Shown piece after piece: positions 11,333 through 51,753 of a stretch of 64,000 bases of DNA. Source of the DNA: Oxalobacter paraformigenes (lineage in GTDB: Bacteria > Pseudomonadota > Gammaproteobacteria > Burkholderiales > Burkholderiaceae_D). The position numbers and the translations under genes are program-made. Position 1 is the stretch's first letter, and each line of letters starts with the position of its first letter. The stretch covers positions 1,735,583-1,799,582 of the forward strand of contig NZ_KI392031.1 in NCBI RefSeq assembly GCF_000158475.2. Direction: 5' to 3'. Under the pieces are notes generated by a model. That model saw nothing but the letters and a program-made list of their open reading frames with translations, was not told the origin of the DNA and did no database searches.

Positions 11333-12595
11333 ATGCATTTATCCGAATTAAAGTCTCTGCACGTGTCCGCACTGCTGGAAATGGCACTTAGCCTTGATAT
11401 TGATAACGCTGCCCGCATGCGCAAACAGGAGTTGATGTTTGCGATTTTAAAAAAACGGGCCAAGGCTGGCGAACAGGTTTACGGAGACGGCGCACTGGAA
11501 ATTCTTCCGGACGGTTTTGGTTTTCTCCGTTCTCCCGATGCCAGCTATATGGCATCGACAGACGACATTTACATTTCTCCTTCCCAGATCAGGCGTTTCA
11601 ACCTTCATACGGGCGATTCCATTGAAGGCGAAGTCAGAACGCCAAAAGACGGAGAACGTTATTTCGCCCTGGTCAAAGTCGACAAAGTCAACGGCGCGCC
11701 ACCCGAGGCGTCCAAACACCGGATGCTGTTCGAAAACCTCACCCCCCTGCACCCGGATGAACCCTTGAAGCTGGAACGCGATATCAGTTCCCAGGAAAAC
11801 ATTACCGGCCGCATCATCGACATGATTGCGCCGATTGGCAAGGGCCAGCGCGGTTTGCTGGTGGCTTCGCCCAAATCCGGCAAAACGGTTATATTGCAGC
11901 ATATGGCTCATGCCATTACAGCCAATCATCCGGATGTTACCCTGTTTGTCCTTCTGATCGATGAACGCCCGGAAGAAGTGACTGAAATGCAGCGATCCGT
12001 TCGCGGCGAAGTCATTGCCTCAACCTTTGACGAACCGGCCACCCGCCATGTCCAGGTTGCCGAAATGGTGCTTGAAAAGGCCAAACGGCTGGTGGAAATG
12101 AAAAAAGACGTAGTCATTCTCCTCGATTCCATCACCCGGCTGGCACGAGCCTACAACACCGTAATACCCGCTTCCGGCAAGGTTCTGACGGGCGGTGTTG
12201 ACGCAAATGCCCTGCAACGTCCGAAACGTTTCTTTGGCGCCGCACGCAATGTGGAAGAAGGCGGTTCTCTGACCATTATTGCAACGGCACTGGTCGAAAC
12301 CGGCAGCCGCATGGATGACGTTATTTATGAAGAATTCAAGGGAACCGGCAATATGGAAGTTCATCTTGAACGCCGCCTCGCGGAAAAACGCGTTTACCCT
12401 GCCATCAATCTGAACAAATCGGGAACGCGTCGCGAGGAATTGCTGATCAAACCGGATCAATTGCAGAAAATCTGGATTCTGCGCAAACTTCTGTATGGCA
12501 TGGACGAAATCGAAGCTATGGAATTCATTCTCGACAAAATGAAAGCCACCAAAAACAATGCCGATTTCTTTGATCTGATGCGTCGGGGCGGCTAG
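11333..12595 (+). CDS. rho: Transcription termination factor Rho
   Basis: Hexameric RNA-dependent ATPase that releases transcripts. It has 420 residues, the standard length. The N-terminal helical and OSB cold-shock-like RNA-binding domains include the DGFGFLRSP segment. The Walker A motif is ASPKSGKT (Lys near residue 184), Walker B is [11 protein letters not shown], and the Q-loop region [20 protein letters not shown] is present. The spacing from trxA and the strong hairpin after it suggest a largely self-contained transcript. Confidence 0.99.
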
Positions 12596-23876: not shown

Positions 23877-26800
23877 TCAGTTCTTCCAGCGCAAATTGAA
23901 ATCGACCCGATGCGCCGGCTTGTCCCTTTCGGCCTCCCCTTGCTTGCTGGCGAGTAAATAAATCCGTTCGTCGGACAGCTTGCCTTTCAGGACAAGCCAG
24001 TTTTTGACGGTTTCCGCTCTCCTGTTGGCCAGCAGGATCAGGCTGTCATTTCTGGAAGAGTAATATCCGACCAACTGTTTTTCCATCTCTGCAACAGACA
24101 CCTCTTTATCGAAAACCAGCAATTTCTTCGGCTTGTCAAATTTTTCGTTCCAATAGACTTCTTTCAACAACACAGGGTACTCTTCTTCGGAAACCCTGAT
24201 TTCCTCAAACGACAATGCACCCTGTTTTTTTCGTTTCAGGGCAAGGATTTTTCTGTTCAACGTCGATTCCCCAAGTCCTGCCCTGTCCGCAACATCGTCG
24301 TATCGGCCTGTAATTTCCAGTCTGATTTTGGGACGCTTGACAAGTCCCTTGGCTATCCTCTCCAGTCGCCGCTCACTTTCTTCCGTTAAAACGGAACTGC
24401 CCGGTTCGAAAACCATACCCGAGAGGGCTTTTTCGTTTTCGTTCAGTGAAGCGAGAAAAGCGAAAGGAGCCGTCACGATTTTTTTAAGCGTGTTCAAAAC
24501 CACTTTACCGACAATACTGCCCAGCGAAAATTCCGGATCGTTCAGCGAACCGGCAATCGGAACATTAATGTCGATCACTCCGTCACTGTCTTTCAACAAG
24601 GCCAGCGCCAGTTCGATAGACAGATCCGCCGCTTCCTCGCTTTCGACTTTTTCTCCCAGAGTCAGTTGATCGAGAACAAGCGCGTTCTCGGCCGTCAGTT
24701 TCCCATCCTCAACCTTGTAAATCGCTTTATACGAGAGTTTGCCTTTTTCGATTCCATACCCCAGATATTTTCCCGAATAGGCACTGAACTGGGCCAGTTC
24801 CATACCGGTTATCTGCGCCTTGATGTTCAACGACAGACTTTCGCTCAACGGATTGATGTAACCTGAAACGATCAGAGGAGCGCCGTTGACCTGCCCTTTC
24901 AATCCCAGTCTCGATTGCGCTTCAGGATCGTTCGACAGATTGATGAAAGCGCCGCGCAGGTTCAGGATATTGGCGGTATAACGGGGTTTGATGAAATTGT
25001 CGGAAAACCGGACGCTTCCGTTTCGGATAATCCATTTTTTGACGGCAATGGGAAAACGGTTGTTTCCCGCTGTATCTGAAACCGCCTGCAGGTCATTGCC
25101 GGCATAAACAGAAGGAGTAAGCCGTGTGGAGACCCCGCTGTTTGCCCCCACTCCGGAATCTTCTTCATTTTCAGCCAGGCTCTTCTGTCCTCCTGCCTTG
25201 CTGCGCAGGATATTCTGCAAATTCAGCCGCCCGTCCGACAATAAAATGACCCTGGCAATAACATCGCTCATTTTGGCCTTATCGATCGTGACAGACAATG
25301 GATTCAGGTTGACCGCAATCCCTTCAAACGCCAGATCTTTCCAGCTGATAACCGGTCTGCCTGTCAACTGATCCACTGCCGCCAGACTGCCGATCGCCGC
25401 TCCGCCGGAAAAGTGCCCTTTTATCGTTCCTTCTTGCTCAAGCCGCAATTTTCCCTTTACGGACATATCTGCCCGTTTAAGCGACAAATTGACATAACTG
25501 TCGATATAAGGCTGGATGAAACGGATATCCACCTCTCTGACATCCATATCCAGATCGGCTTTCAAGGGCGAAACGGCAATATTTCCTTTCACGACGATTG
25601 CCCCCCGGTCATTGACTTTCGCCTGCATGAACAAGGGAACGTTTTTTTCCAGCGAATCCGACAGATTTTCTGCGCTTGCTTCAAGCCGTGAAACCCGTGT
25701 GATAATGGGCTGCGCAACTTGCCTGTTCTCAAAAGAAAGAGACCAGTCCTTTATAGCCGCACGCCGGATCCGGAAATGGAAACCGGTACTGTCGGCTGCC
25801 GTGCCCATTGCCTCCTGTGCCACTTTTGCCTTGTCTTTTTCCCGGAGCCTGTCGAGCAATTCAGGCATGCTGTGAACGAGTGTGATGCGCGTCCCTGTCG
25901 AGACCACGCTGTCCACCGCCGCATTACGGCCGCTTACATCCAGCGACAGATTTACGACATTCAGGCCGAAATTTCGGGCCGATATATTGACCGGCCTGTT
26001 ATAGGCCCGATCAAGGAAGTGAAGCTGGCCTCCGTTTACCACAAACTGTTTGAGATCAACAGCCAGTGTTCGCCTGGAAGCGGTCTTTTCATTTTCGGCC
26101 GTTCCGGTTTTTTCTGCCGGTTTTTTCCCGGCCTTCACTAACCGTTCGAAATTCCATTGGCCATCTTTGTTTCGCTCCAGAAACACCCGTGGATTTTCCA
26201 CACTGACACGATTCAGTTTTATCTTTCCCGAAACAAGATCGCTCTTGCCGATACCGATTTTCAGTTCCGGAATGTCAAGAAGGTGTGCGTTGTCAGACTC
26301 AGTCAGTCGCAGGGAATGAAACACCACATCGCCTTCAACGAATATGGGACGTTTGTCGCCTTCCCGTTTGGCAAAAGTCATGTCCAGATCGGCAGAGAGC
26401 TTGCCGCTCTTCAGTTTGAAACCGGGGTCGAACGGCAGGTAACCCAGATACGTCGGCAAATCGAGTTTGTCCAGTTTGATACCGATCGTACCGTCCTTTT
26501 TATTCAACACCGGTCTGGATTTACCGACCAGTTCGATTTTGTCCCTGTTAATTCTGGCGCGGATTGAAAACGGGACAAACACCTCGACTTCCGCAGGCAT
26601 ATTGGCAATGAAGGGAATGCCGACATTCAACTCTTCTATCAAAAGACGTTTTTTGCGCACGTCATCGTCAACGCGAATTGTCCCGTTTTCAATCCGGATA
26701 TTGTTGATGGAAAAAAGTGTTCTCCCGGCATCGTCTTCTCGGGGCTTCGACAAATACGTCACCATATCGTCAACGTTGTATTTTCCGCTCTGCCGCCGGA

Positions 26801-27176
26801 CGATGTGCACTGTCGGATTGACCAGCCTGATTTGCCTGATAACCGGATTGAATTCTGAAAAAGTCCGGGGAGAAAACTCGACAAACAAATGATCGAATGA
26901 AACGAAAGCCCTTTCCTGGCCGGGCTCGGACAAGCGGACGCCTTCGAGCCTGACCGTCAGCCTGAAAGGATCCAGCTCTATTTTCTGGACAGTCAGCTCA
27001 CGATTGAAATTTTCAGCGGCAAATTCCCGGGCTTTCGATTGAACGATACCGGGAAGAAAAAATACAGCGGCAACGATGGCGACAATGAGCGACGCGCTGG
27101 CAAAGGCCAGAAAAAGGGCAATGGTCCGTTTTATCCGCGAACGTTTTCCGTTGCCGGAAATATTGTGCTCTCTCAT
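23877..27176 (-). CDS. DUF748/AsmA-like envelope protein with split OmpA-like C-terminus (copy 2)
   Basis: Predicted periplasmic protein of 1,099 residues anchored by one N-terminal membrane helix (about 18-42). The body is a long beta-rich AsmA/DUF748 repeat, a fold now linked to phospholipid movement between membranes (family knowledge; not shown for this gene). Near the C-terminus, FEPGSSVLTEESERRLERIA and LANRRAETVKNWL resemble the two halves of an OmpA peptidoglycan-binding domain separated by about 90 residues. It lies 33 bp downstream of a close paralogue and is probably co-transcribed with it. Exact function unknown. Confidence 0.85.
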   Translation of the reverse strand: MREHNISGNGKRSRIKRTIALFLAFASASLIVAIVAAVFFLPGIVQSKAREFAAENFNRELTVQKIELDPFRLTVRLEGVRLSEPGQERAFVSFDHLFVEFSPRTFSEFNPVIRQIRLVNPTVHIVRRQSGKYNVDDMVTYLSKPREDDAGRTLFSINNIRIENGTIRVDDDVRKKRLLIEELNVGIPFIANMPAEVEVFVPFSIRARINRDKIELVGKSRPVLNKKDGTIGIKLDKLDLPTYLGYLPFDPGFKLKSGKLSADLDMTFAKREGDKRPIFVEGDVVFHSLRLTESDNAHLLDIPELKIGIGKSDLVSGKIKLNRVSVENPRVFLERNKDGQWNFERLVKAGKKPAEKTGTAENEKTASRRTLAVDLKQFVVNGGQLHFLDRAYNRPVNISARNFGLNVVNLSLDVSGRNAAVDSVVSTGTRITLVHSMPELLDRLREKDKAKVAQEAMGTAADSTGFHFRIRRAAIKDWSLSFENRQVAQPIITRVSRLEASAENLSDSLEKNVPLFMQAKVNDRGAIVVKGNIAVSPLKADLDMDVREVDIRFIQPYIDSYVNLSLKRADMSVKGKLRLEQEGTIKGHFSGGAAIGSLAAVDQLTGRPVISWKDLAFEGIAVNLNPLSVTIDKAKMSDVIARVILLSDGRLNLQNILRSKAGGQKSLAENEEDSGVGANSGVSTRLTPSVYAGNDLQAVSDTAGNNRFPIAVKKWIIRNGSVRFSDNFIKPRYTANILNLRGAFINLSNDPEAQSRLGLKGQVNGAPLIVSGYINPLSESLSLNIKAQITGMELAQFSAYSGKYLGYGIEKGKLSYKAIYKVEDGKLTAENALVLDQLTLGEKVESEEAADLSIELALALLKDSDGVIDINVPIAGSLNDPEFSLGSIVGKVVLNTLKKIVTAPFAFLASLNENEKALSGMVFEPGSSVLTEESERRLERIAKGLVKRPKIRLEITGRYDDVADRAGLGESTLNRKILALKRKKQGALSFEEIRVSEEEYPVLLKEVYWNEKFDKPKKLLVFDKEVSVAEMEKQLVGYYSSRNDSLILLANRRAETVKNWLVLKGKLSDERIYLLASKQGEAERDKPAHRVDFNLRWKN

Positions 27177-27209
27177 GGGTTCCTGCCGTTCTTTACAATG
27201 AGGTTGAAA

Positions 27210-30200
27210 TCATTTTAAAGAAAAATCCACGCGATTACCGGACTCGTCACCTTCCGTATTCCGGGCTTTGCTGGCCAGTACAAACAGTCTCTCTTCAGGA
27301 ATGCCTCCCTTGCTGGCCAACCACTCTTTTACCGCTTGCGCACGCCGGTTCGCCAGCAGGATCAGATCGTCTTTTTTTCCTGCAAAATGCCGGGACAACA
27401 ATTTTTCCATTTCCGGAACGGGCAGGGATTTGCTGAACCCGATCCAGTTTCTGGGCTTTTTAAAGTCCTCATCGCTGTACAAACGTTTTAACAGGTCGGG
27501 ATATTCCCTGTCGCTGACAGCGGCTTTTTGTCCGTCCGCTCTTTCACCTGGCTCTCCCGCTTTCATCGCACGGACTTTTCGCAAAATCATCTGTTTGCCC
27601 AAACCATCGCTATCGATTACCGGATCGTATTTCCCGGCAATTTCCAGCGTCAGGGCAGGCCGGTTTCCAAGGGCTTTGGCAAGTGATTCCAGTTTTTTCT
27701 GTTCAGACCCGGTTATAACAGAACTGCCCGGCTCGAAGGCCAGCCATGACAACTCTTCCGTATCGCCTGCCAGTGAGGCAAGCAGCGAAAACGGCGCTGT
27801 CACGGCTTTCTGTACGAGATTGACGAAAACCCTGAAAATAATGCCGCCCACTGAAAACTCCGGATCGTTCAGCGACCCGCCGATCGGCAGACGGATATCG
27901 ATAACGCCATGCCTATCTTTCAGAAGCGCCAGTGCAAGCTGGATGGGCAAATTGATGGCCGACTCGCTTTCCACCTTGTCTCCCAGAGTCAGCTGATCCA
28001 GAATGAGCGCATTTTCGGCAGACAATTGCCCGTTTTCAACCTGGTAGGCGACATCGAAAGACAACTTTCCTTTCTCGATACCGTAGCCGATGTATTTACC
28101 GGAATAGGCGCTGAATTGCGCCAGCTCCATTCCCTTGACATTGGCTGTGATATCCAGCGCCAGACTTTCGCCAAGCGGATTGATCGTTCCGGCAATGACA
28201 AGAGGCGCGCCATTGACTCGTCCCCTGATATCGACAGCTGCCCGCTTTTCAGGATCCGTCGTCAAGCCGGAAAGACTTCCCCTCAAATTGACCAGATTGG
28301 CCGTATAACGCGGCCGGATAAAGTTGTCGGAAAACCGGATGTTTCCGTTATTGAGCCGCCATTTTTTAATCCGGACAGAATAAGCCGGCCGCTCGTTTTT
28401 CTTTGGCGGCACAGCATCGGCAACAACCGTGTTTGCCGTACCGGAGTCTGTATTCGTTAGTGCTTTTTCCGTTTTTTCCTCGCTTTCCGTCAGACTCTTT
28501 TTGCCACCGGTTTCACTTCTCAGCACATCCTGAAGATTCAGCCGGCCGGCTGAACTCAAAATGACTCTTGCCGACAAACCGTTCAGCCCGACCTGATCGA
28601 CAACGACGGAAAGGGGCGCCAGATCGGCGCGAATTCCTTTGAACGACAACGCTTTCCAGCTGACAAAAGGCTGCTTGCTCAACTGATCGACCGTGACAAG
28701 ACGGCTTATGCCTGCATCCCCGGTAAAACGTCCCTGTATCGCCTGACGTTTTGTTTGAGAAAGGCGCAGTTTGCCCTGCACGGTCAAATCTGCCTGTTTG
28801 AGAGACAGATTGACGAAATCTTCAATATAGGGCTGGATAAAGCGGACATCGACATCTTTCAGATTCAGATCGAGATCGGCCACGAACGGGGAAAGGTTCA
28901 GACTGCCATTAACGGCAATCGTTCCTCTCCGGTTAACCCCGGCATTAACCGATAGCTGAACCGGCTGCTCCGTATTGTCAGACAAATGATCAATAGCCAC
29001 ATTCAGGCCGTCAATCCGGGTTACAACAGGCTTCCCTGCATCCCGGTTTTCAAAGTGAACGCCCCAGTCGTTCAGTTCCAGCCGGTTGACATGAAAACCG
29101 AACCCGGTTTGCGCCTCCATTTCCGAAACCGTTTTCTGTGCGGACTTCCGAATGCGTTTTTTATCTTCCGGAAAATTCAGTTTTCCGTGAACGAATTGCA
29201 CTTGCGTGCCAGTGGATACCAGTTTCCCGACTGTTGCATTCCGCCCTGATATGTCCAGTACGATATCCCCGGCGTTCAATCCGAAATTCCGCATGGAAAA
29301 ATTGGCGGGAACGACCTGAACCTGATCGTGTATCTGAAGCTGCCCTTCCTCAAGAGTCAGTTGACCAAGAGCGATTGACCAGAGCAGACTTTCCTTATGC
29401 GTTTTATCGGCTTTTAAATTGCCGGAATCCGCTTTCTCCGGAATTTTTTTCATATCAATCCGGGCAAGCCGTTCGACGTTCCATTGCCCGGCTTTATTCC
29501 TGTCCAGATAAAGCTCGGGTTGTTTCAGCCGGATATGACTCAGGCCGATATTTCCCGACAAAATGTCGCTTCTGGCGATATCGACCCCCATTTCAGGCAT
29601 TTTAAGCAAGGTTTTTCCACCCTTTTCTGTCAGCCACAGAGAAGTCAGGGTCAGGTTTCCACCGATAGTAAGGGCTGACCTGTTATCTTCCGGTTTACCG
29701 AATCCAACGTCCAGATCAAGGGATAACTTGCCGTCTTTCAATACGAAATTCGGCTGGAAAGGCAAATAATCCATGTAGGAAGGCAAACTGATTCCATCCA
29801 GTTTGACAGTGACCATCCCGTCCTTGTCGCGGTAAAAAGGACGCGCTTTTCCGGCCAGTTCAATCTTTTCCCCGTTGAATCTGCCGCTAATTGCCAGATC
29901 GACAAAAATATCGACCTGAGAAGGGATGGATGAAACAAACGGAATGGAAACATTCAGTTCATCAACCAGATGGCGTTTCTTCTGCGGCAAATCGTCGAAT
30001 TCGACGACGGCGTTTACGACCCGAATGTTATTGATGGAAAACCGTGCTGGTGAATCGTCCTCCCCGGGTTCCATCGCGAAAGCGATAAAATCGTCGAAAT
30101 TGTAACGATTGCTTCCGGAACGGACGAGATGAACTCTTGGATTGGCAAGTTTGATCTCTTCAATGACCGGCGCCATCCTGAACAGGGATTGGCCTGAAAG

Positions 30201-30500
30201 GTTGACTGTCAAGCGATCGAAAGTGACAAAATCGTCTTCCTGCTCCGGCTCAGTCAGATGCATCTTGTCGAAATCAACCGTCAAGGTCAGTGGATTGAAC
30301 GAAACTTTCCGGAAATGAAGATTTCGCCGGAATTTTTCGGAAACGAATTGTTGCGCCTTGCTCTCTATCACGCCGGGAATGACGAAATAGCCGACAACCC
30401 CATATGCGACAAACAAGAAAACGACTGCGGCAAGAATCCACCTGAACAAAGGTTTTCGCCAGTAACCGCCCGGATTCAGTTTTTTCAAAGGATTCTGCAT
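27210..30500 (-). CDS. DUF748/AsmA-like envelope protein with split OmpA-like C-terminus (copy 1)
   Basis: A 1,096-residue paralogue of the following gene, collinear with it from the N-terminal membrane helix (about 17-42) to the last residues. Shared blocks include RFSINNIRV, RYTANLVNLRG versus RYTANILNLRG, and AQFSAYSGKY, near identical in both. The C-terminal FEPGSSVITGSEQKKLESLAK and LLANRRAQAVKEWL halves resemble a divided OmpA-like domain. The pair is a tandem duplication that has diverged widely except in these blocks. Likely role: inner-membrane-anchored, spanning the periplasm; partner and cargo unknown. Confidence 0.85.
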   Translation of the reverse strand: MQNPLKKLNPGGYWRKPLFRWILAAVVFLFVAYGVVGYFVIPGVIESKAQQFVSEKFRRNLHFRKVSFNPLTLTVDFDKMHLTEPEQEDDFVTFDRLTVNLSGQSLFRMAPVIEEIKLANPRVHLVRSGSNRYNFDDFIAFAMEPGEDDSPARFSINNIRVVNAVVEFDDLPQKKRHLVDELNVSIPFVSSIPSQVDIFVDLAISGRFNGEKIELAGKARPFYRDKDGMVTVKLDGISLPSYMDYLPFQPNFVLKDGKLSLDLDVGFGKPEDNRSALTIGGNLTLTSLWLTEKGGKTLLKMPEMGVDIARSDILSGNIGLSHIRLKQPELYLDRNKAGQWNVERLARIDMKKIPEKADSGNLKADKTHKESLLWSIALGQLTLEEGQLQIHDQVQVVPANFSMRNFGLNAGDIVLDISGRNATVGKLVSTGTQVQFVHGKLNFPEDKKRIRKSAQKTVSEMEAQTGFGFHVNRLELNDWGVHFENRDAGKPVVTRIDGLNVAIDHLSDNTEQPVQLSVNAGVNRRGTIAVNGSLNLSPFVADLDLNLKDVDVRFIQPYIEDFVNLSLKQADLTVQGKLRLSQTKRQAIQGRFTGDAGISRLVTVDQLSKQPFVSWKALSFKGIRADLAPLSVVVDQVGLNGLSARVILSSAGRLNLQDVLRSETGGKKSLTESEEKTEKALTNTDSGTANTVVADAVPPKKNERPAYSVRIKKWRLNNGNIRFSDNFIRPRYTANLVNLRGSLSGLTTDPEKRAAVDIRGRVNGAPLVIAGTINPLGESLALDITANVKGMELAQFSAYSGKYIGYGIEKGKLSFDVAYQVENGQLSAENALILDQLTLGDKVESESAINLPIQLALALLKDRHGVIDIRLPIGGSLNDPEFSVGGIIFRVFVNLVQKAVTAPFSLLASLAGDTEELSWLAFEPGSSVITGSEQKKLESLAKALGNRPALTLEIAGKYDPVIDSDGLGKQMILRKVRAMKAGEPGERADGQKAAVSDREYPDLLKRLYSDEDFKKPRNWIGFSKSLPVPEMEKLLSRHFAGKKDDLILLANRRAQAVKEWLASKGGIPEERLFVLASKARNTEGDESGNRVDFSLK

Positions 30501-42941: not shown

Positions 42942-43424
42942 ATGATGAAACGTCTGACACTACTGATATCGCTCCTGTTCCTGACACTGTCCGGCTGTGC
43001 ATCCCTTTTCACCACGCCTTCCCCGGGCACGCCGGTTCAGGAAGTGGTTGCCCTTAAAGGCCAGCCGGATGCCGAATATCTGGATGGCAATACCCGGCTT
43101 CTGGAATGGTCTGTTGGCCCCTGGGCACAATATGCCTATATGGCCCGGATCGGCCCGGATGGCAGGCTGATTTCGTACGAACAAGTGTTGACTCGCGAAA
43201 AATTCGGGACCATCCAGATCAACCGCTCCACCAAGAACGATGTGCTGAAAACGGTCGGCCATCCAACCGAAAGTGATTTTCTGCCTTTGATCGATCGTGA
43301 AGTCTGGGCTTACCGATACAAGGAAGAAGGCATCTGGAATTCCATGATGTATGTCTATTTCGACAAGCAGGGCATCGTCAGAAGAATGGAAAACGGTCTG
43401 GATCCCATGTATCTGCGGGATTGA
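42942..43424 (+). CDS. Small lipoprotein, BamE/SmpA-like (paralogue 1)
   Basis: A 160-residue exported lipoprotein; the signal ends at LTLSGC (Cys19). The mature part has two similar motifs, TPVQEVVALKGQPD and STKNDVLKTVGHPTESDFL, recalling the BamE/OmlA fold, in which short helices follow a turn with G-x-P. Its C-terminal half, including YRYKEEGIWNSMM, is almost the same as in the next gene. Function unknown; outer-membrane attachment is likely from the residue after Cys (Ala). Confidence 0.75.
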   Translation: MMKRLTLLISLLFLTLSGCASLFTTPSPGTPVQEVVALKGQPDAEYLDGNTRLLEWSVGPWAQYAYMARIGPDGRLISYEQVLTREKFGTIQINRSTKNDVLKTVGHPTESDFLPLIDREVWAYRYKEEGIWNSMMYVYFDKQGIVRRMENGLDPMYLRD

Positions 43425-43461
43425 ACAAGACAAACGAGGTGAAAAAGACAAGGAGACAAGC

Positions 43462-44034
43462 ATGAAGCATTCCCTTTCGGCGCTGGTTCTGGCAAGTTTG
43501 CTGGCCTTATCCGGTTGCGCCTCTGTTTTTGGCCCTCCGCTCACGCCCGGTATGCCTGTCCAGGAAGTGATTGCCCGTAAAGGAGCGCCAGCCATTGAAT
43601 ACCCCGACGGCAATACGAAAATTCTGGAATGGCCGGCAGGTGAATGGTCGCAGTATGCCTACATGGCCCGGATCGGCCCCGACGGCAGGCTGATTTCGTA
43701 CGACAATGTCCGGACCCGCGAAAAATTCGCGACAATCAAGGTCAACCAGTTCAACAAGAACGATGTCTTGCGAACGGTGGGCCATCCGACCGAAACGGAA
43801 TACCTTCCCTTGAAAAAACAGGAAGTCTGGTCTTACCGATACAAGGAAGAAGGCATCTGGAATTCCATGATGCACATTTATTTTGATTCCAGCGGAATCG
43901 TGCGTGGCATGGAAAACGGCCAGGATCCGCTTTACCTGCGTGACAACGGGTTTTTCGGAGGACTGGGCGGTATTGGAGGCGGAATCGGAATCGGGATAGG
44001 TGGAGGTGGTGGCGGAATAGGTATCGGTTTTTAG
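43462..44034 (+). CDS. Small lipoprotein, BamE/SmpA-like, with glycine-rich tail (paralogue 2)
   Basis: A 190-residue paralogue of the preceding gene, starting at the ATG at 43462 behind AAGGAG. The signal ends at LALSGC (Cys19). It shares QYAYMARIGPDGRLISY and YRYKEEGIWNSMM with copy 1. After LRD, where copy 1 stops, it continues with ~30 residues ending in a tail of almost only Gly and Ile (GGIGIGIGGGGGGIG and similar). The pair is 37 bp apart and likely one transcript. Function unknown. Confidence 0.75.
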   Translation: MKHSLSALVLASLLALSGCASVFGPPLTPGMPVQEVIARKGAPAIEYPDGNTKILEWPAGEWSQYAYMARIGPDGRLISYDNVRTREKFATIKVNQFNKNDVLRTVGHPTETEYLPLKKQEVWSYRYKEEGIWNSMMHIYFDSSGIVRGMENGQDPLYLRDNGFFGGLGGIGGGIGIGIGGGGGGIGIGF

Positions 44035-44081: not shown

Positions 44082-45599
44082 TCAAATCACTTTGGAGACA
44101 GCATCTATATAGGCATTGACCGAAGCGGTAATGATATCGGTATTGGCCGCAAAACCGTAATAAACCTTGCCCTTGTTCTCGACCTGAATATGCACTTTGC
44201 CGACATCGTCGGTCCCGCGAGTAAACGCCTGAATCAGGAATTCTTCCAGGGTGACTTTCTGGGTAATCAACTGGCGAACGGCGTTGATGGAGGCGTCGAT
44301 CGGCCCGTTACCGGAAGCCGTAGCCATACACAGTTCTCCATCAATTACCAGTCGGACTGTCGCCATCGGAATAGAATCCTTACCGCAAACAACCTGCAAA
44401 TAATCCAGTTTGATTCTTCTGGCATCTTCTACGGTTCCGGTTCCCGCCAGATTGCGGAGGTCTTCGTCGGATACGGATTTCTGCGCGTCGGCCAGAACAA
44501 GGAATTTGCTGTAAGCAACATCCAGCTCTGCATGCGAGAGTTCATAGCCCAGACGGCGCAGATGATGATCCAGCGCGGCACGACCGCTGCGAGCCGTCAG
44601 GACAATGGATGAATCGCTGACGCCGATATCGGCCGGATCGATAATTTCATAGTTTTCGCGGTTCTTCAATACGCCGTCCTGATGAATGCCTGAAGAATGC
44701 GCGAATGCATTGCGGCCGACGATAGCCTTGTTCGGTTGCACCGGCATGCGCATCAGATTGGAAACCAGACGCGACGTCTTGATGATCTTGGTAGTATCGA
44801 TATCAGTATAGGCGGGAATATCCTTGCGGCACTTCAGGATCATGACAACTTCTTCAAGAGAGGTATTGCCTGCACGTTCGCCGATTCCGTTGATCGTGCA
44901 TTCGACCTGGCGGATGCCATTCATGATACCGGCAAGCGCATTGGCCGTAGCCATGCCCAGATCGTTATGGCAATGAGCGGACAAAACAGCCTTGTCCACG
45001 TTGGCGACGTTGTCTTTCAGGTATTTGATTTTTGCGCCATATTCGTAAGGAGTACAGTAACCGGTGGTATCCGGAATATTGATCACGGTAGCGCCAGCCG
45101 CGATCACGGCTTCCACAACACGCGCCAGAAATTCGTTATCGCTCCGCCCGGCGTCTTCCGCAAAGAATTCGACATCGTCAACATACTTTTTGGCGTATTT
45201 CACCATCTGGACAGCCCGTTCGAGAATCTGTTCGGGCGTTGAATTGAATTTTGAATAAATGTGGTACGGAGAAGTACCGATACCGGTATGGATACGTCCT
45301 TTTTTAGCGTATTTCAACGCTTCCGCCGCCACATCAATGTCTTTTTCGATAGCGCGCGTCAGGGCGGAAATAACCGGTCTGTCGACGACTTTCGAGATTT
45401 CGACTACCGATTTGAAATCGCCCGGACTGGAAATAGGAAACCCCGCCTCAATAACATCGACGCCCAATGCTTCAAGGGCTCTGGCAACTTCGATTTTTTC
45501 AAGTGTATTCAGTTGGCTACCCGGAACCTGTTCTCCGTCACGCAAGGTGGTATCAAATATAATGATTTTTTCTGCCGAGTCTGCTGGTGTGCCAACCAT
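44082..45599 (-). CDS. leuA: 2-isopropylmalate synthase
   Basis: First committed step of leucine synthesis: acetyl-CoA plus 2-ketoisovalerate. It has 505 residues from an ATG with AAGGAG upstream; the frame from 45677 adds 26 unrelated residues. The catalytic TIM-barrel segment [16 protein letters not shown] is at the N-terminus, and the [16 protein letters not shown] metal-site region is central. A C-terminal regulatory domain for leucine feedback runs from ~385. A leucine-rich leader peptide lies ~115 bp upstream. Confidence 0.98.
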
Positions 45600-45909
45600 G
45601 ATGTGCTCCTTTGGATAATTCGATAATGTTTTAGTTAAACTGGAATACGGCTCCGACTGCCTCTGCCTTGTGTGCAAAGACCAAGAAAGTTCCGGAATAG
45701 TAAATAAGAGATATCAGCACGCCTTGCGCGCTAGAACGAGCAATAGCGACAGCTCGCAAAACCTGTCGCCATGAGTATTGAATGGAGAACTGACCATTTT
45801 GAGATTCATGAAAAAACTATAAGCTCCTTTTTCAATTCATGCAATATTTTTTGAAATGCACTTTCGTATATCGATGAAATGTCTCTAATTTGCAAAGCGA
45901 CAGTTTACC
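45600..45909 (-). promoter_or_regulatory. leuA leader region
   Basis: This 310-bp gap between pssA and leuA contains the leader peptide, the hairpin at its end (AGCGCG/CGTGCT), and a weak hairpin CTTTGC/GCAGAG further on. I could not identify a convincing promoter or an intrinsic terminator. Control by translation or by Rho is possible. Confidence 0.5.
45714..45809 (-). CDS. leuL: Predicted leucine leader peptide of leuA
   Basis: A 31-codon reading frame upstream of leuA, too short for routine gene calling. Residues 20-26 read LSLLLVL, five leucines in seven codons with four different codons including CTA twice; the peptide has six leucines in all. An AAGGAG lies 14 bp before its ATG, slightly far. 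A G-C-rich hairpin (45716-45732) overlaps its last codons and stop. This fits a leucine-sensing attenuator, but no U-tract terminator is visible before leuA. Confidence 0.7.
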   Translation of the reverse strand: MNLKMVSSPFNTHGDRFCELSLLLVLARKAC

Positions 45910-46713
45910 TTATTCTTTTTCATCGTGCGGTTCGACCTCGGTCTGGACAATACTGACAGGTTTGCCCTTTATTTTTCGCCAGAGATAAACGAGATAACCC
46001 GAAACGCCATAAATGACGAAAAGCCCGAACAGCACCTTGGGCGGATCGAAGGAGATAGTGACGAAAATCAGTACTATCAGTATAACGGCAATAAACGGCA
46101 CCGACTTCCGGATATTCATGACCTTGAAACTGTAAAACGGAACATTCGACACCATCGTCAGACCGGCATACAGCGTCAACAGCCAGGAAGTCCAGTAAAA
46201 ATCGCTGCCGGAAAACCCGACATCGTCCATCAACCAGATGAAACCCGCCACCAGAGCAGCGGCAGCCGGACTGGGCAACCCCTGAAAATAACGCTTGTCC
46301 ACGATAGCGATATTCGTGTTGAAGCGGGCCAGTCTCAACGCGGCGCACGCACAGAACACGAAAGCGGAAACCCATCCTATGCGCCCCATTCCCTTAAGAG
46401 ACCACTCATAGACCACGAGTGCGGGTGCCGCGCCGAATGCTACCATATCGGCCAGACTGTCTAACTGGGCGCCGAACTCGCTTTGCGTTCTTGTCAGACG
46501 CGCGACCCGACCGTCCATACTGTCTAAAATCATGGATATGAAAATAGCGACTGTCGCCTGTTTGAATTCCAGATTCAGTGACATGACAATGGCATAAAAG
46601 CCGCAGAACAATGAAGATATGGTGATCGCATTCGGCAAAAGGTAAAATCCCCTGCGTCGCAATTTCGCGGGAGTCGAAGTCAATTCGGTGCCGGGTTGTT
46701 CCTGCTCAGTCAT
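45910..46713 (-). CDS. pssA: CDP-diacylglycerol-serine O-phosphatidyltransferase
   Basis: Membrane enzyme making phosphatidylserine. It has 267 residues with about eight hydrophobic segments. The CDP-alcohol phosphotransferase signature DG(x)2AR(x)8G(x)3D(x)3D is complete: Asp67, Gly68, Ala71, Arg72, Gly81, Asp85, Asp89. It follows psd by 75 bp, so both steps to phosphatidylethanolamine are encoded together. Confidence 0.96.
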   Translation of the reverse strand: MTEQEQPGTELTSTPAKLRRRGFYLLPNAITISSLFCGFYAIVMSLNLEFKQATVAIFISMILDSMDGRVARLTRTQSEFGAQLDSLADMVAFGAAPALVVYEWSLKGMGRIGWVSAFVFCACAALRLARFNTNIAIVDKRYFQGLPSPAAAALVAGFIWLMDDVGFSGSDFYWTSWLLTLYAGLTMVSNVPFYSFKVMNIRKSVPFIAVILIVLIFVTISFDPPKVLFGLFVIYGVSGYLVYLWRKIKGKPVSIVQTEVEPHDEKE

Positions 46714-47800: not shown

Positions 47801-48205
47801 ATGAAGTTTCGCGATCCAACCAGCCCCATGTGGATGCAGGCATTAAAAATGCTGGAACAGGCCGATCAGCTCCACAAACACTTTTTCCAGTTAGGAAAGA
47901 CCAAATCACGCGGCCCCGTCTGGGAACCTCCTGTCGATCTTCTTGAAACCGAGCGTTATTTTCTGATACTGATCGCCTTGCCGGGAATCGATCCTTCCGA
48001 AGTCAGCGTTGTGATTGAAAACAGTGCCATCCATGTCGTGGGTGAGCGGCAAATCGCCATTGGCAGGGATACGGTTGTCAGGCGGCTGGAAATTCCGTAT
48101 GGCCGTTTTGAAAAATGGATCAGCTTGCCCAACGGACACTATCAGATTGCCGAAAATGTCCTGACAAACGGCTGTTTGCGTTTGGTACTGAACAAACTTG
48201 GATGA
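47801..48205 (+). CDS. Small heat-shock protein (Hsp20/alpha-crystallin family)
   Basis: A 134-residue ATP-independent chaperone. The alpha-crystallin domain runs from about 45 to 130 (PPVDLLETERYFLILIALPGI, HVVGER, FEKWISLP). The usual C-terminal I-x-I/V docking motif is missing after LRLVLNKLG, which may limit large oligomers. It lies 10 bp before lon and is probably co-expressed with it. Confidence 0.88.
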   Translation: MKFRDPTSPMWMQALKMLEQADQLHKHFFQLGKTKSRGPVWEPPVDLLETERYFLILIALPGIDPSEVSVVIENSAIHVVGERQIAIGRDTVVRRLEIPYGRFEKWISLPNGHYQIAENVLTNGCLRLVLNKLG

Positions 48206-48215
48206 CAGGTGAGTT

Positions 48216-50663
48216 ATGACTTCTCCAGAACTTGAAAAAATTTCTTTAACCTCCGGAAACGATACCGGCAATACCGGATCGCCAGACCAGCCTGCCGGTG
48301 AAAAAAATGGATATCCTTCCATTCCTGAAGATGCCTTGATTATTATCCCAGTCAGAAACATGGTTCTTTTTCCCGGAATGGTCGTTCCGGTAACGATCGC
48401 CCGTGAAAAATCGCTATTGGCCGCCCAGGCCGCCATGCGGACAAACCGCCAGATCGGTATTGTCTTGCAGCGCGATCCTGAAACGGCCAACCCCGCACAG
48501 AAAGATCTATACCCAGTCGGCACGCGTGCCAGCATCCTGCGTTATGTTGCCGCCTCTTCCGAAGCACATCATATTGTCTGTCAGGGTGAAAGCCGTTTCC
48601 GTCTTGTCGAAATGCTGGACGGCTATCCTTTTCTGGTTGCCCGTGTCGAAAAAATTCAGGAAGAACCGGAAGACAGCGTCGATATTCAGGGCCGTATGGT
48701 TCAATTGAAACAGCGCGCTCTGGAAATTCTCCAAATGCTGCCCCAGGTGCCGAAGGAATTGTCCGATTCACTCGGCAATGTGACTTCGGCAGCCCTGCTT
48801 GCCGATCTGATGACAGGACTGATGGATTTGACGCCCGATGAAAAACAGGAAATTCTGGAGACAACGGATCTGAAAACGCGTATAGACAAACTGCTTTCTC
48901 ATCTGACTTACCGGCTTGAAATTCTTCGGGTCAGCAAGGACATTGACGAGCAGACCCGAAACCGCCTTGACGACCGCCATCGTGAAGCGCTGTTGCGTGA
49001 GCAATTGAAAACGATTCAGAATCAGTTGGGTGAAATTGACGATGCTTCTTCGGAAGCGGCGGAACTTTCCGAAAAAATCGAAAAGGCCAACATGCCGGAA
49101 GAAGTCCATACGCACGCCATGAAAGAGTTGAACCGCCTGAAAAACATGCCGGAATCGTCGGGCGAATATTCCATGCTGCGCAATTACCTGGAATGGCTTG
49201 TGGAACTGCCCTGGGCGATTTCCTCGGATGACCGGACCGATATCAATGAAGCCCGCCAGATTCTCGACGAAGACCACTATGGTCTTGAGAAGGTCAAGAA
49301 ACGTATCCTGGAATTTCTGGCGGTTCACAAACTGAATCCGGAAGGCAAAAGCCCGCTTTTATGCTTTGTGGGCCCACCCGGAGTTGGCAAAACTTCCCTG
49401 GGACAAAGCATCGCCAGAGCAACCGGACGCAAGTTCGTTCGCGTCAGTATGGGCGGCGTCCATGACGAAGCCGAAATCCGCGGCCACCGGCGCACTTATA
49501 TCGGCGCACTTCCGGGCAACATCATTCAGGCGATTCGTCGCGCAGGAACCAACAACTGCGTCATGCTGCTGGATGAAGTCGACAAGCTGGGAAGCGGTGT
49601 CCAGGGAGATCCGTCGGCCGCATTGCTGGAGGTACTGGATCCTGCCCAGAACAGTACTTTCCGGGACAATTATCTGGCCGTTCCTTTCGATCTGTCGAAA
49701 GTCATGTTCATCTGCACCGCAAACATGCCGGACACGATTCCCGGCCCTTTGCGCGACCGGCTTGAAATGATCCAGCTTCCCGGCTACACGGAACAGGAAA
49801 AGACGCAGATAGCCTTGCGTTATCTGATCAGACGCCAACGTGAAGAAAACGGGCTGAAGCCCGAAAACTGTGAAATTACCGAAAACGCCATTCACGACAT
49901 TATCGGCCATTACACACGGGAGGCCGGCGTTCGCAATCTTGAACGCGAAATCGGGAGCGTCTTCCGGAATGCCGCCATGAAAATTGCTGAAGGAAGCGCC
50001 GAAAAAGTAACGGTCGATTCAGCCGATATCCCGGACATTCTGGGTGCGCCGATTTACGAAGGTGAAATCGCCATGCGTTCCAGCATGCCCGGTATCGCGA
50101 CCGGACTGGCCTGGACACCGGTAGGAGGTGATATTCTTTTTATTGAAGCCAGCCGCGTTCCGGGCCGAAACAAACTGACTCTGACAGGCCAGTTGGGCGA
50201 AGTCATGCGCGAAAGTGCACAGGCCGCACTGACGCTTGTAAAAGCCCGTGCCGTTGACCTGAAAATCAATCCCGAGTTGTTTGAAAACAGTGAAATTCAT
50301 GTTCATGTACCGGCAGGCGCGATTCCCAAAGATGGGCCCAGTGCCGGGGTCGCCATGTTTCTTGCACTGGCTTCCGTCATGATGAACAAACCAGTCGCCA
50401 GCGATCACGCCATGACCGGCGAGATCAGCTTGCGCGGACTGGTTCTGCCTGTAGGCGGCATCAAGGAAAAGGTACTGGCCGCTTTGCGCGCCGGCATCAA
50501 GACAGTCATGTTACCGGCACGAAACAAACGCGATCTGGATGATATCCCTGAAGAAGCGCGCAATCAGCTTCAATTTGTCTTTCTGGAAACGGTTGACGAC
50601 GCTATCCGTGCAGGACTGATCAATCATGAAGGCGCTATCGATACGGAAAATCGGAATAAATGA
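48216..50663 (+). CDS. lon: ATP-dependent protease Lon
   Basis: Hexameric AAA+ protease that degrades misfolded and regulatory proteins. It has 815 residues: an N-terminal LON domain beginning at [20 protein letters not shown], a coiled-coil region, Walker A GPPGVGKT (near 386) and Walker [10 protein letters not shown]. The protease domain has PKDGPSAG (catalytic Ser near 709) and GGIKEK with the partner lysine (near 750). Coupled closely behind hsp20. Confidence 0.98.
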
Positions 50664-51264: not shown

Positions 51265-51753
51265 TTACTCCACAGGTATGTTTCTGACCGTTTCACTGAC
51301 GGCTTTCGGCAAACGAATCGACAAAACCCCATCTACATAGCTTGCCTGCGATTTTTCGCTATCGACATTTTTAGGCAAGCTTATCGAACGCTCGAACGAA
51401 CCGTAAGCGCGTTCGATAAGATGGTAAGTGCTTCCTTCGCTCTCACGCACTATCCGTTTGTCTCCCCGGATAAAAAGGGTATTGCCGATAATGCGGATGG
51501 AAAAGTTTTCCTTTCCGATACCCGGCATCTCCATACGGACGACAAAATCACTGGACGTTTCCTCTATTTCGGCATTCATCAATCCCCAATGTGGAAAAGC
51601 GTCGTTTTTGTTACCGTATTCGTTACGTTCAAAATGAACCAGAGCATTGCTGCAACGGCTAAGCAATTCACGCCAGCCGTCAGAAAGACTTTCCCAGGCA
51701 CGATTCAATTCGCGGCCAATGCTTTTTCCGGCTTCTTTCAAAGAATCAAGCAT
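51265..51753 (-). CDS. Small heat-shock protein (Hsp20 family), second copy
   Basis: A 162-residue chaperone-like protein. An N-terminal helical region of ~55 residues precedes the alpha-crystallin domain (NAEIEETSSDFVVRMEMPGI to YVDGVLSIRLPKA). Unlike the copy before lon, it keeps the A-x-x-x-G-x-L signature and a short C-terminal NIPVE extension resembling the I-x-V docking motif. A GGGAGGA ribosome site precedes the start. The two Hsp20s are divergent and not a recent duplicate. Confidence 0.88.
   Translation of the reverse strand: MLDSLKEAGKSIGRELNRAWESLSDGWRELLSRCSNALVHFERNEYGNKNDAFPHWGLMNAEIEETSSDFVVRMEMPGIGKENFSIRIIGNTLFIRGDKRIVRESEGSTYHLIERAYGSFERSISLPKNVDSEKSQASYVDGVLSIRLPKAVSETVRNIPVE

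Follow-up and report, generated by a model that had tools for sequence, protein, structure and literature searches.

A putative leucine-sensing leader with a predicted leaderless start precedes leuA in Oxalobacter paraformigenes and its betaproteobacterial relatives

The region upstream of leuA was analysed in a stretch of 64,000 nucleotides (nt) of Oxalobacter paraformigenes (Burkholderiales; contig NZ_KI392031.1, positions 1,735,583 to 1,799,582, called the window below, with positions counted from its first letter). The genome assembly, GCF_000158475.2, comprises 2.49 Mb and is rated 100% complete. On the minus strand, a 31-codon open reading frame (ORF) at 45714 to 45809 encodes the leader peptide MNLKMVSSPFNTHGDRFCELSLLLVLARKAC; the ORF is conserved in the genus and far beyond. 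From its sequence and conservation there is little doubt that this leader is a leucine sensor for leuA, and the region would probably act as a leucine-responsive, ribosome-mediated attenuator of this gene. Comparison of sequences points to a shared anatomy consisting of a fixed promoter geometry, the ORF with its Leu codons, two hairpins (2 and 3 below), a G-less tract and a constant association with leuA, in which neither a U run nor a conserved alternative pairing was found.

In the order of the minus strand, pssA (end at 45910) is followed by a promoter, the leader ORF (45809 to 45714), a spacer of 114 nt and the leuA ATG at 45599. A preliminary description of this DNA had claimed a Leu-rich frame of 31 codons ahead of leuA, in which LSLLLVL is encoded with CTG, CTA, TTG, CTC and CTA. 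The frame is present and the codons match the sequence. The description also reported a hairpin over the stop codon and the absence of an intrinsic terminator, both of which were recovered (see below); the promoter elements from which RNA synthesis is predicted to begin at the leader AUG, hairpin 1, the G-less tract and hairpin 3 are additional to it. The Leu codons of the ORF are, in order, CTC, CTG, CTA, TTG, CTC and CTA, and the candidate regulatory segment reads CTG TCG CTA TTG CTC GTT CTA (45732 to 45752, minus strand). In a translated ORF that precedes leuA, Leu codons placed at the 3' end serve as the standard sensor of charged Leu-tRNA. Taken alone, the Leu content of the ORF is just mildly unusual compared with chance (six Leu among 30 codons, P of about 0.075). 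P is about 0.004 for the dense Leu run and 0.002 for two CTA among the six Leu codons, CTA making up 1.1% of the Leu codons in 14 genes of the window. The ORF is genuine, because it is conserved in nine loci of the genus and in 127 distinct leaders overall.

LeuA loci were obtained from 12 of the 13 genomes of the genus. The leader is retained in nine of them, with the same 17-nt promoter spacer, the hexamer TATAGT and an ATG 6-8 nt later, followed by an open frame of 25-31 codons that is freely variable in its 5' half and ends in CTAGC[G/A]CGC-NNN-GCGTGCTGA. The frame, the conservation of which among close relatives had been put forward as decisive, occurs in 9/9 loci that retain the upstream region, and ORF, promoter and hairpin are in register. 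In three of the loci (L011, L013 and L017) the stop codon lies in the hairpin loop, and the 3' arm GCGTGCTGA, which is untranslated there, is unchanged. This implies that RNA and not peptide is conserved. In one locus (L008) the upstream region is cut by a contig end. Leader and promoter have been lost in L010 and L012 (genomes G124 and G146), where leuA lies close behind pssA, a natural ablation; L012 retains the remnant GCGTGCTG.

When the window stretch served as a DNA query against the family, matches were limited to a few members of the genus, and the hairpin pattern, with two mismatches allowed, occurred at or near background outside it. Covariance models were used because these searches failed beyond the genus. 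Model R1, built from 25 family sequences, matched 104 of 393 genomes of the family (18 of 44 genera) and 120 of 399 genomes of the order (62 of 159 genera), under the stricter filters of the many-genome searches, by which weak members may have been missed. Nearly always there was one leader per matching genome, and leuA lay directly downstream in every inspected strong match that was not cut by a contig end. A wider model, R2, was run on 321 genomes of the class and found a few true relatives outside the order, in other gammaproteobacteria; there (L335, L337, L338, L339 and L341) a leader variant ending in LLLP or similar precedes leuA, with a stem CTGCCC...GGGCAG or similar at the stop. Four other class-level matches (L336, L340, L342 and L343) were not leuA leaders. 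In total, 127 distinct leaders were parsed, by rules that ask for a promoter-like -10 element, an ATG and a 3' end that is rich in Leu and has Arg close to the terminus; model matches that escaped these rules were read by eye. In one family member (G085, L233 / L138) the leader seems to have decayed, its promoter being retained and its Leu run and hairpin disordered.

The promoter ahead of the leader appears to be of the sigma70 type. In the window it consists of a -35 element TTGCAT (45839 to 45844) exactly 17 nt ahead of a -10 element TATAGT (45816 to 45821, both minus strand). A -35 TTG with exactly this spacer is present in 120 of the 127 leaders, and the -10 element is TATAGT in 73, TATATT in 53 and TACATT in one. 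The distance from the -10 element to the leader ATG is 6 nt in the window and 6-10 nt over all leaders (7 nt in 68, 6 nt in 40). From this geometry, transcription is predicted to start at or beside the A of the leader AUG (45809; range 45807 to 45811, minus strand). A 4-mer resembling a Shine-Dalgarno sequence is present at -16 to -5 of 110/127 leuA starts, including AAAGGAG at 45606 to 45612 of the minus strand in the window, and at the same distance from the leader ATG in 0/127; the window has an AGGAG 14 nt upstream of the leader ATG, within the promoter spacer. Because the ATG follows the -10 element by 6-10 nt and a Shine-Dalgarno sequence is absent, the leader ORF is very likely translated from a leaderless mRNA.

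The preliminary description had proposed an alignment of leuA upstream regions. In this comparison Leu was conserved, accounting for 39% of the last 14 residues of the peptides versus 12% earlier, and the flanking residues varied. The peptides have a median length of 28 residues, with 3-9 Leu codons near the 3' end of the ORF; CTA represents 22% of the Leu codons among the last 14 codons versus 1.1% in the 14 window genes. The first Leu codons of the run lie in the 3' arm of a predicted hairpin 1 (45743 to 45772, minus strand), to which the fold of the ORF region (mean z -1.6) and a cognate pairing that exceeds non-cognate pairing (t -5) lend support. The Leu run ends at hairpin 2, UAGCGCGC-AAG-GCGUGCUG, which overlaps the stop codon and lies at 45715 to 45733 of the minus strand. 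A hairpin of at least 5 base pairs with a 3-7 nt loop was found at the stop of 127/127 leaders versus 30% of shuffled windows, and in 33 of the 127 the stop codon is within its loop. In the 60 leaders that end in L-R-x-A-R, CGC is used for Arg 120 times out of 120 and GCG for Ala 60 times out of 60, while nine different residues occur at x, in the loop. Other lineages have TAGTGCG/CGCGCTA, GCGCC/GGCGC or CTGCCC/GGGCAG as stems, always at the end of the Leu run. By itself, the stem of hairpin 2 is not proven by the covariation within our alignment A3, which is too low for this; support for the stem comes from its presence in all leaders, the frozen synonymous sites and the lineage-specific stems. 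Since the synonymous sites in the L-R-x-A-R codons are frozen and the hairpin persists in lineages whose residues differ, a constraint on the RNA would account for the recurrence of this tail. The frozen positions seem to point to RNA rather than to the sequence of an arrest peptide.

Directly behind hairpin 2 a G-less, pyrimidine-rich tract, AUAUCUCUUAUUUACUAUUCC (45694 to 45714, minus strand), forms a candidate Rho utilization (rut) site. Over the 127 leaders, the first 20 nt past hairpin 2 contain 1.9% G (47 G in 2540 nt) and 43% C, and in 104 leaders the first 18 nt contain no G at all. The tract begins A/C-rich and is predicted to be unlikely to pair with other segments of the leader. A motif resembling CAATT(C/T)G recurs after it, at +5 to +36 past hairpin 2 (CAATT in 61/127). 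The ORF upstream of its Leu region is composed of 34% C and 16.5% G. A third hairpin, with its core at 45659 to 45681 of the minus strand in the window, begins a median of 30 nt past hairpin 2; over 125 loci its energy is -14.0 versus -9.8 kcal/mol for shuffled sequences, which it beats in 94% of these loci. It is not followed by a U run: the next 8 nt contain 33% T versus a background of 28.5%, and at least five T in 14% of the loci. In a search for canonical terminators at the locus only hairpin 2 was returned, with a non-canonical tail. The stated lack of a stem plus U run between leader and leuA is thus seen at this locus and likewise across the 125 loci.

The gene behind the leader, leuA (44082 to 45599, minus strand), encodes a 2-isopropylmalate synthase of 505 amino acids, assigned with NCBIfam, that is of Bacteroidales type. 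A protein scan with this LeuA yielded at least 80 loci, all Bacteroidales or Lentisphaerae by title among the matches listed, with 65-73% identity. In a tree, LeuA of the Oxalobacter group falls with the Bacteroidales proteins and is separated from LeuA of Burkholderiales by a branch supported in 100/100. The native leuA products of the family are 46-49% identical to this LeuA, and many of their genes carry the same upstream device. The genes downstream of the leaders encode native LeuA1, Bacteroidales-type LeuA or synthases of LeuA2 type, and within a single other genus of the family (g41) the leader precedes either an Oxalobacter-like leuA (genome G041) or a LeuA2-type gene (G068 and G090). 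The leader itself is betaproteobacterial, as is the surrounding gene order psd-pssA-leuA. A Bacteroidales-type leuA behind a betaproteobacterial leader suggests that the enzyme gene was replaced in place within a betaproteobacterial pssA-leuA context and that the control region was kept. The Oxalobacter-like leuA of G041 (L314 / L129) has 78% identity and stands behind the leader of that genome itself, from which a small ORF, MSSEPKEKPIIDAGKQ..., separates it.

For the working of the leader we infer the exact start site, the stalling, the direction of regulation and the participation of Rho, as follows. A sigma70-type promoter would start the RNA at or beside the AUG of the 31-codon ORF, which a ribosome would translate as a leaderless mRNA. 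With charged Leu-tRNA in ample supply, the ribosome would pass the Leu codons, reach the stop in hairpin 2 and depart. The pyrimidine-rich ORF and the G-less tract would then be exposed, so that Rho could load and halt RNA polymerase ahead of leuA while the ribosome is gone. Under leucine shortage it would stall at the base of hairpin 2, on the Leu codons and amid the would-be Rho site, and transcription would proceed into leuA. A Rho-dependent stop is the most economical assumption because there is no intrinsic terminator, the tract after the stop is G-less and unstructured, and the ORF is pyrimidine-rich. It is also suggested by analogy with tnaC, in which Rho is recruited to an exposed rut site beside the leader stop when no ribosome blocks this site (PMC8429421). 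Overall, a Rho-dependent termination step is slightly favoured. The rho gene is encoded in the same window (11333 to 12595). As to the alternative offered in the preliminary description, Rho-dependent or translational, a simple translational switch found no backing in cognate pairing with the leuA ribosome-binding site, and the Rho step is retained as a conjecture.

Several observations weigh against this scheme. Identification of the leaders demanded Leu-rich 3' ends, so that the Leu counts are somewhat inflated. By its C/G value, the best 78-nt window within the leader region stands only moderately high (median in about the top 10% of the flanks), 20 nt would make a short rut site, and in the window itself the tract is U-rich, not C-rich. 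A ribosome stalled at the Leu codons would leave the tract partly uncovered, and the proposed direction of the Rho switch therefore needs a rut site that reaches into the ORF. The scheme does not account for hairpin 3. The complete picture is that of a leucine attenuator without leader Shine-Dalgarno sequence, intrinsic terminator or antiterminator, in which a ribosome on a leaderless ORF would control Rho at a G-less tract beside a stop-codon hairpin, which occurs in betaproteobacteria and some other gammaproteobacteria, and which outlived the exchange of leuA. We regard it as evenly balanced between right and wrong.

A classical attenuation with an intrinsic terminator, in which hairpin 2 or 3 would be a weak, factor-assisted terminator that a stalled ribosome blocks or replaces by an antiterminator, is unlikely, although it ranks first among the alternatives. 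Hairpin 3 is conserved and stable, and the leuL RNA of Campylobacter jejuni ends soon past its stop codon (PMC3847290). However, hairpin 3 lacks the U run, the tract behind hairpin 2 begins A/C-rich, and no coevolved pairing of hairpin 2 or of the Leu segments with the arms of hairpin 3 was detected. When cognate and non-cognate duplex energies were compared in the 125 loci, no alternative pairing was found among the Leu segment, hairpin 2, the tract, hairpin 3 and the leuA start region, and an antiterminator switch is accordingly unsupported by these energies. Pairing of another kind, such as a pseudoknot or a protein-assisted structure, may be involved.

Less probable still is a leader that chiefly yields a stable trans-acting small RNA with its 3' end at hairpin 2 or 3, like rnTrpL of Sinorhizobium, whether or not leuA is also controlled in cis. 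The predicted leaderless start and the compact hairpins resemble rnTrpL (PMC10117765), and the leader has persisted through the exchange of the leuA behind it. Against this, it always adjoins leuA in a single copy per genome, its Leu codons are conserved, and the variable 5' part of the ORF leaves little conserved seed for targets. We consider improbable a translational attenuation in which the ribosome-binding site of leuA would be hidden by the leader RNA and freed when a ribosome stalls, as has a precedent in toiL-topAI of E. coli (PMC12121999). The Leu codons did pair better with the leuA start than mono-shuffled sequences, but with non-cognate partners as the control nothing of this signal was left (mean z 0.0), and the repetitiveness of the Leu codons is its probable cause. 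No leader segment paired better with the cognate leuA ribosome-binding site than with sites taken from elsewhere among the genomes, which disfavours a switch by sequestration of this site, and the leader stop lies a median of 102 nt from leuA with hairpin 3 intervening. It is very improbable that a DNA-binding regulator uses the GCRCGC-NNN-GCGTGC dyad as its operator and that the ORF is incidental: the dyad is perfect in the DNA of some genus members (GCACGC CCG GCGTGC), but most members have a G-T mismatch in DNA that is a G-U pair in RNA, and the stem sequence varies by lineage while its position at the end of the Leu run is constant. A chance ORF without function, for which one could cite the weak evidence of Leu content by itself (P of about 0.075), is refuted by the anatomy conserved in 127 distinct leaders.

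A scan of the window stretch and 11 loci with the Rfam covariance models (cmscan) gave no match to a leucine-leader family and nothing relevant, and five leader peptides had no match in Pfam or NCBIfam. The leu attenuator of E. coli and Salmonella (LeuL; Rfam family Leu_leader, RF00512) likewise has a leader peptide of similar size before leuA and senses leucine by Leu codons, but the leader described here lacks a Shine-Dalgarno sequence, a terminator U run and a detectable antiterminator. The enterobacterial parallel drawn in the preliminary description thus holds for the principle of sensing and not for the type of attenuator. Polycysteine leaderless small ORFs of mycobacteria, the subject of work by Canestrari in 2020, are said to attenuate by a run of Cys codons; a leaderless start, which is predicted here, and a codon run of the regulated amino acid are shared, but these are Actinobacteria and the amino acid is Cys. 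The trpL leader of Sinorhizobium meliloti is a classical attenuator of the terminator type. As is predicted for the present case, the attenuator RNA of an amino-acid biosynthesis gene begins there with a leader-peptide ORF that is leaderless, but trpL concerns tryptophan in Alphaproteobacteria (PMC10117765).

The E. coli LeuL peptide has 28 amino acids with 4 Leu (PMC6123439). LeuL of C. jejuni is the nearest described case, its leader RNA ending soon past the stop codon; it differs in being epsilonproteobacterial and in that a ribosome-binding site was part of the basis on which its relatives were predicted (PMC3847290), and it is likened to our leader without a claim of homology. E. coli tnaC is a precedent for what is proposed here, with a short ORF, a rut site right after the stop, no requirement for an intrinsic terminator and Rho access that depends on the position of the ribosome (PMC8429421). 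There, free Trp brings about the arrest through the nascent peptide, whereas here stalling at hungry Leu codons is proposed. The leuA leader of Corynebacterium glutamicum (PMC4046766) resembles the present one in short-ORF attenuation with a codon run, but is a different, actinobacterial leader. A description of the betaproteobacterial leader was not found in the open-access papers searched; putative leader peptides for branched-chain amino acids, with terminator hairpins, in various Gram-negatives are cited in a review (PMC6123439), and the 2004 survey cited there may mention it.

Some other features of the window and the genome may be recorded. Two overlapping, similar small lipoprotein-like ORFs stand in tandem at 42942 to 44034 (plus strand), the second with a glycine-rich tail. 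Two small-heat-shock-like ORFs, assigned by eye, lie at 47801 to 48205 (plus strand) and 51265 to 51753 (minus strand), near a lon-like gene (48216 to 50663). An adjacent pair of similar ORFs of about 1100 amino acids each (23877 to 30500, minus strand) is apparently a tandem duplication. The genome encodes an oxalyl-CoA decarboxylase that scores above the curated cut-off.

If the proposed reading is true, leucine attenuation would be extended to a large lineage that has no described leuA leader in the libraries and open-access papers searched. Its build would be unusual, with a leaderless start, a stop codon in or beside a hairpin, a G-less tract and no terminator. A survey protocol misses Rho-dependent cases by its own statement (PMC2965389), and surveys based on intrinsic terminators would be blind to a leader of this kind. 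The approximately 130 natural variants would allow direct tests of Rho-dependent amino-acid attenuation, and in the Oxalobacter group a control element would have been retained although another phylum supplied a new version of the enzyme gene that follows it.
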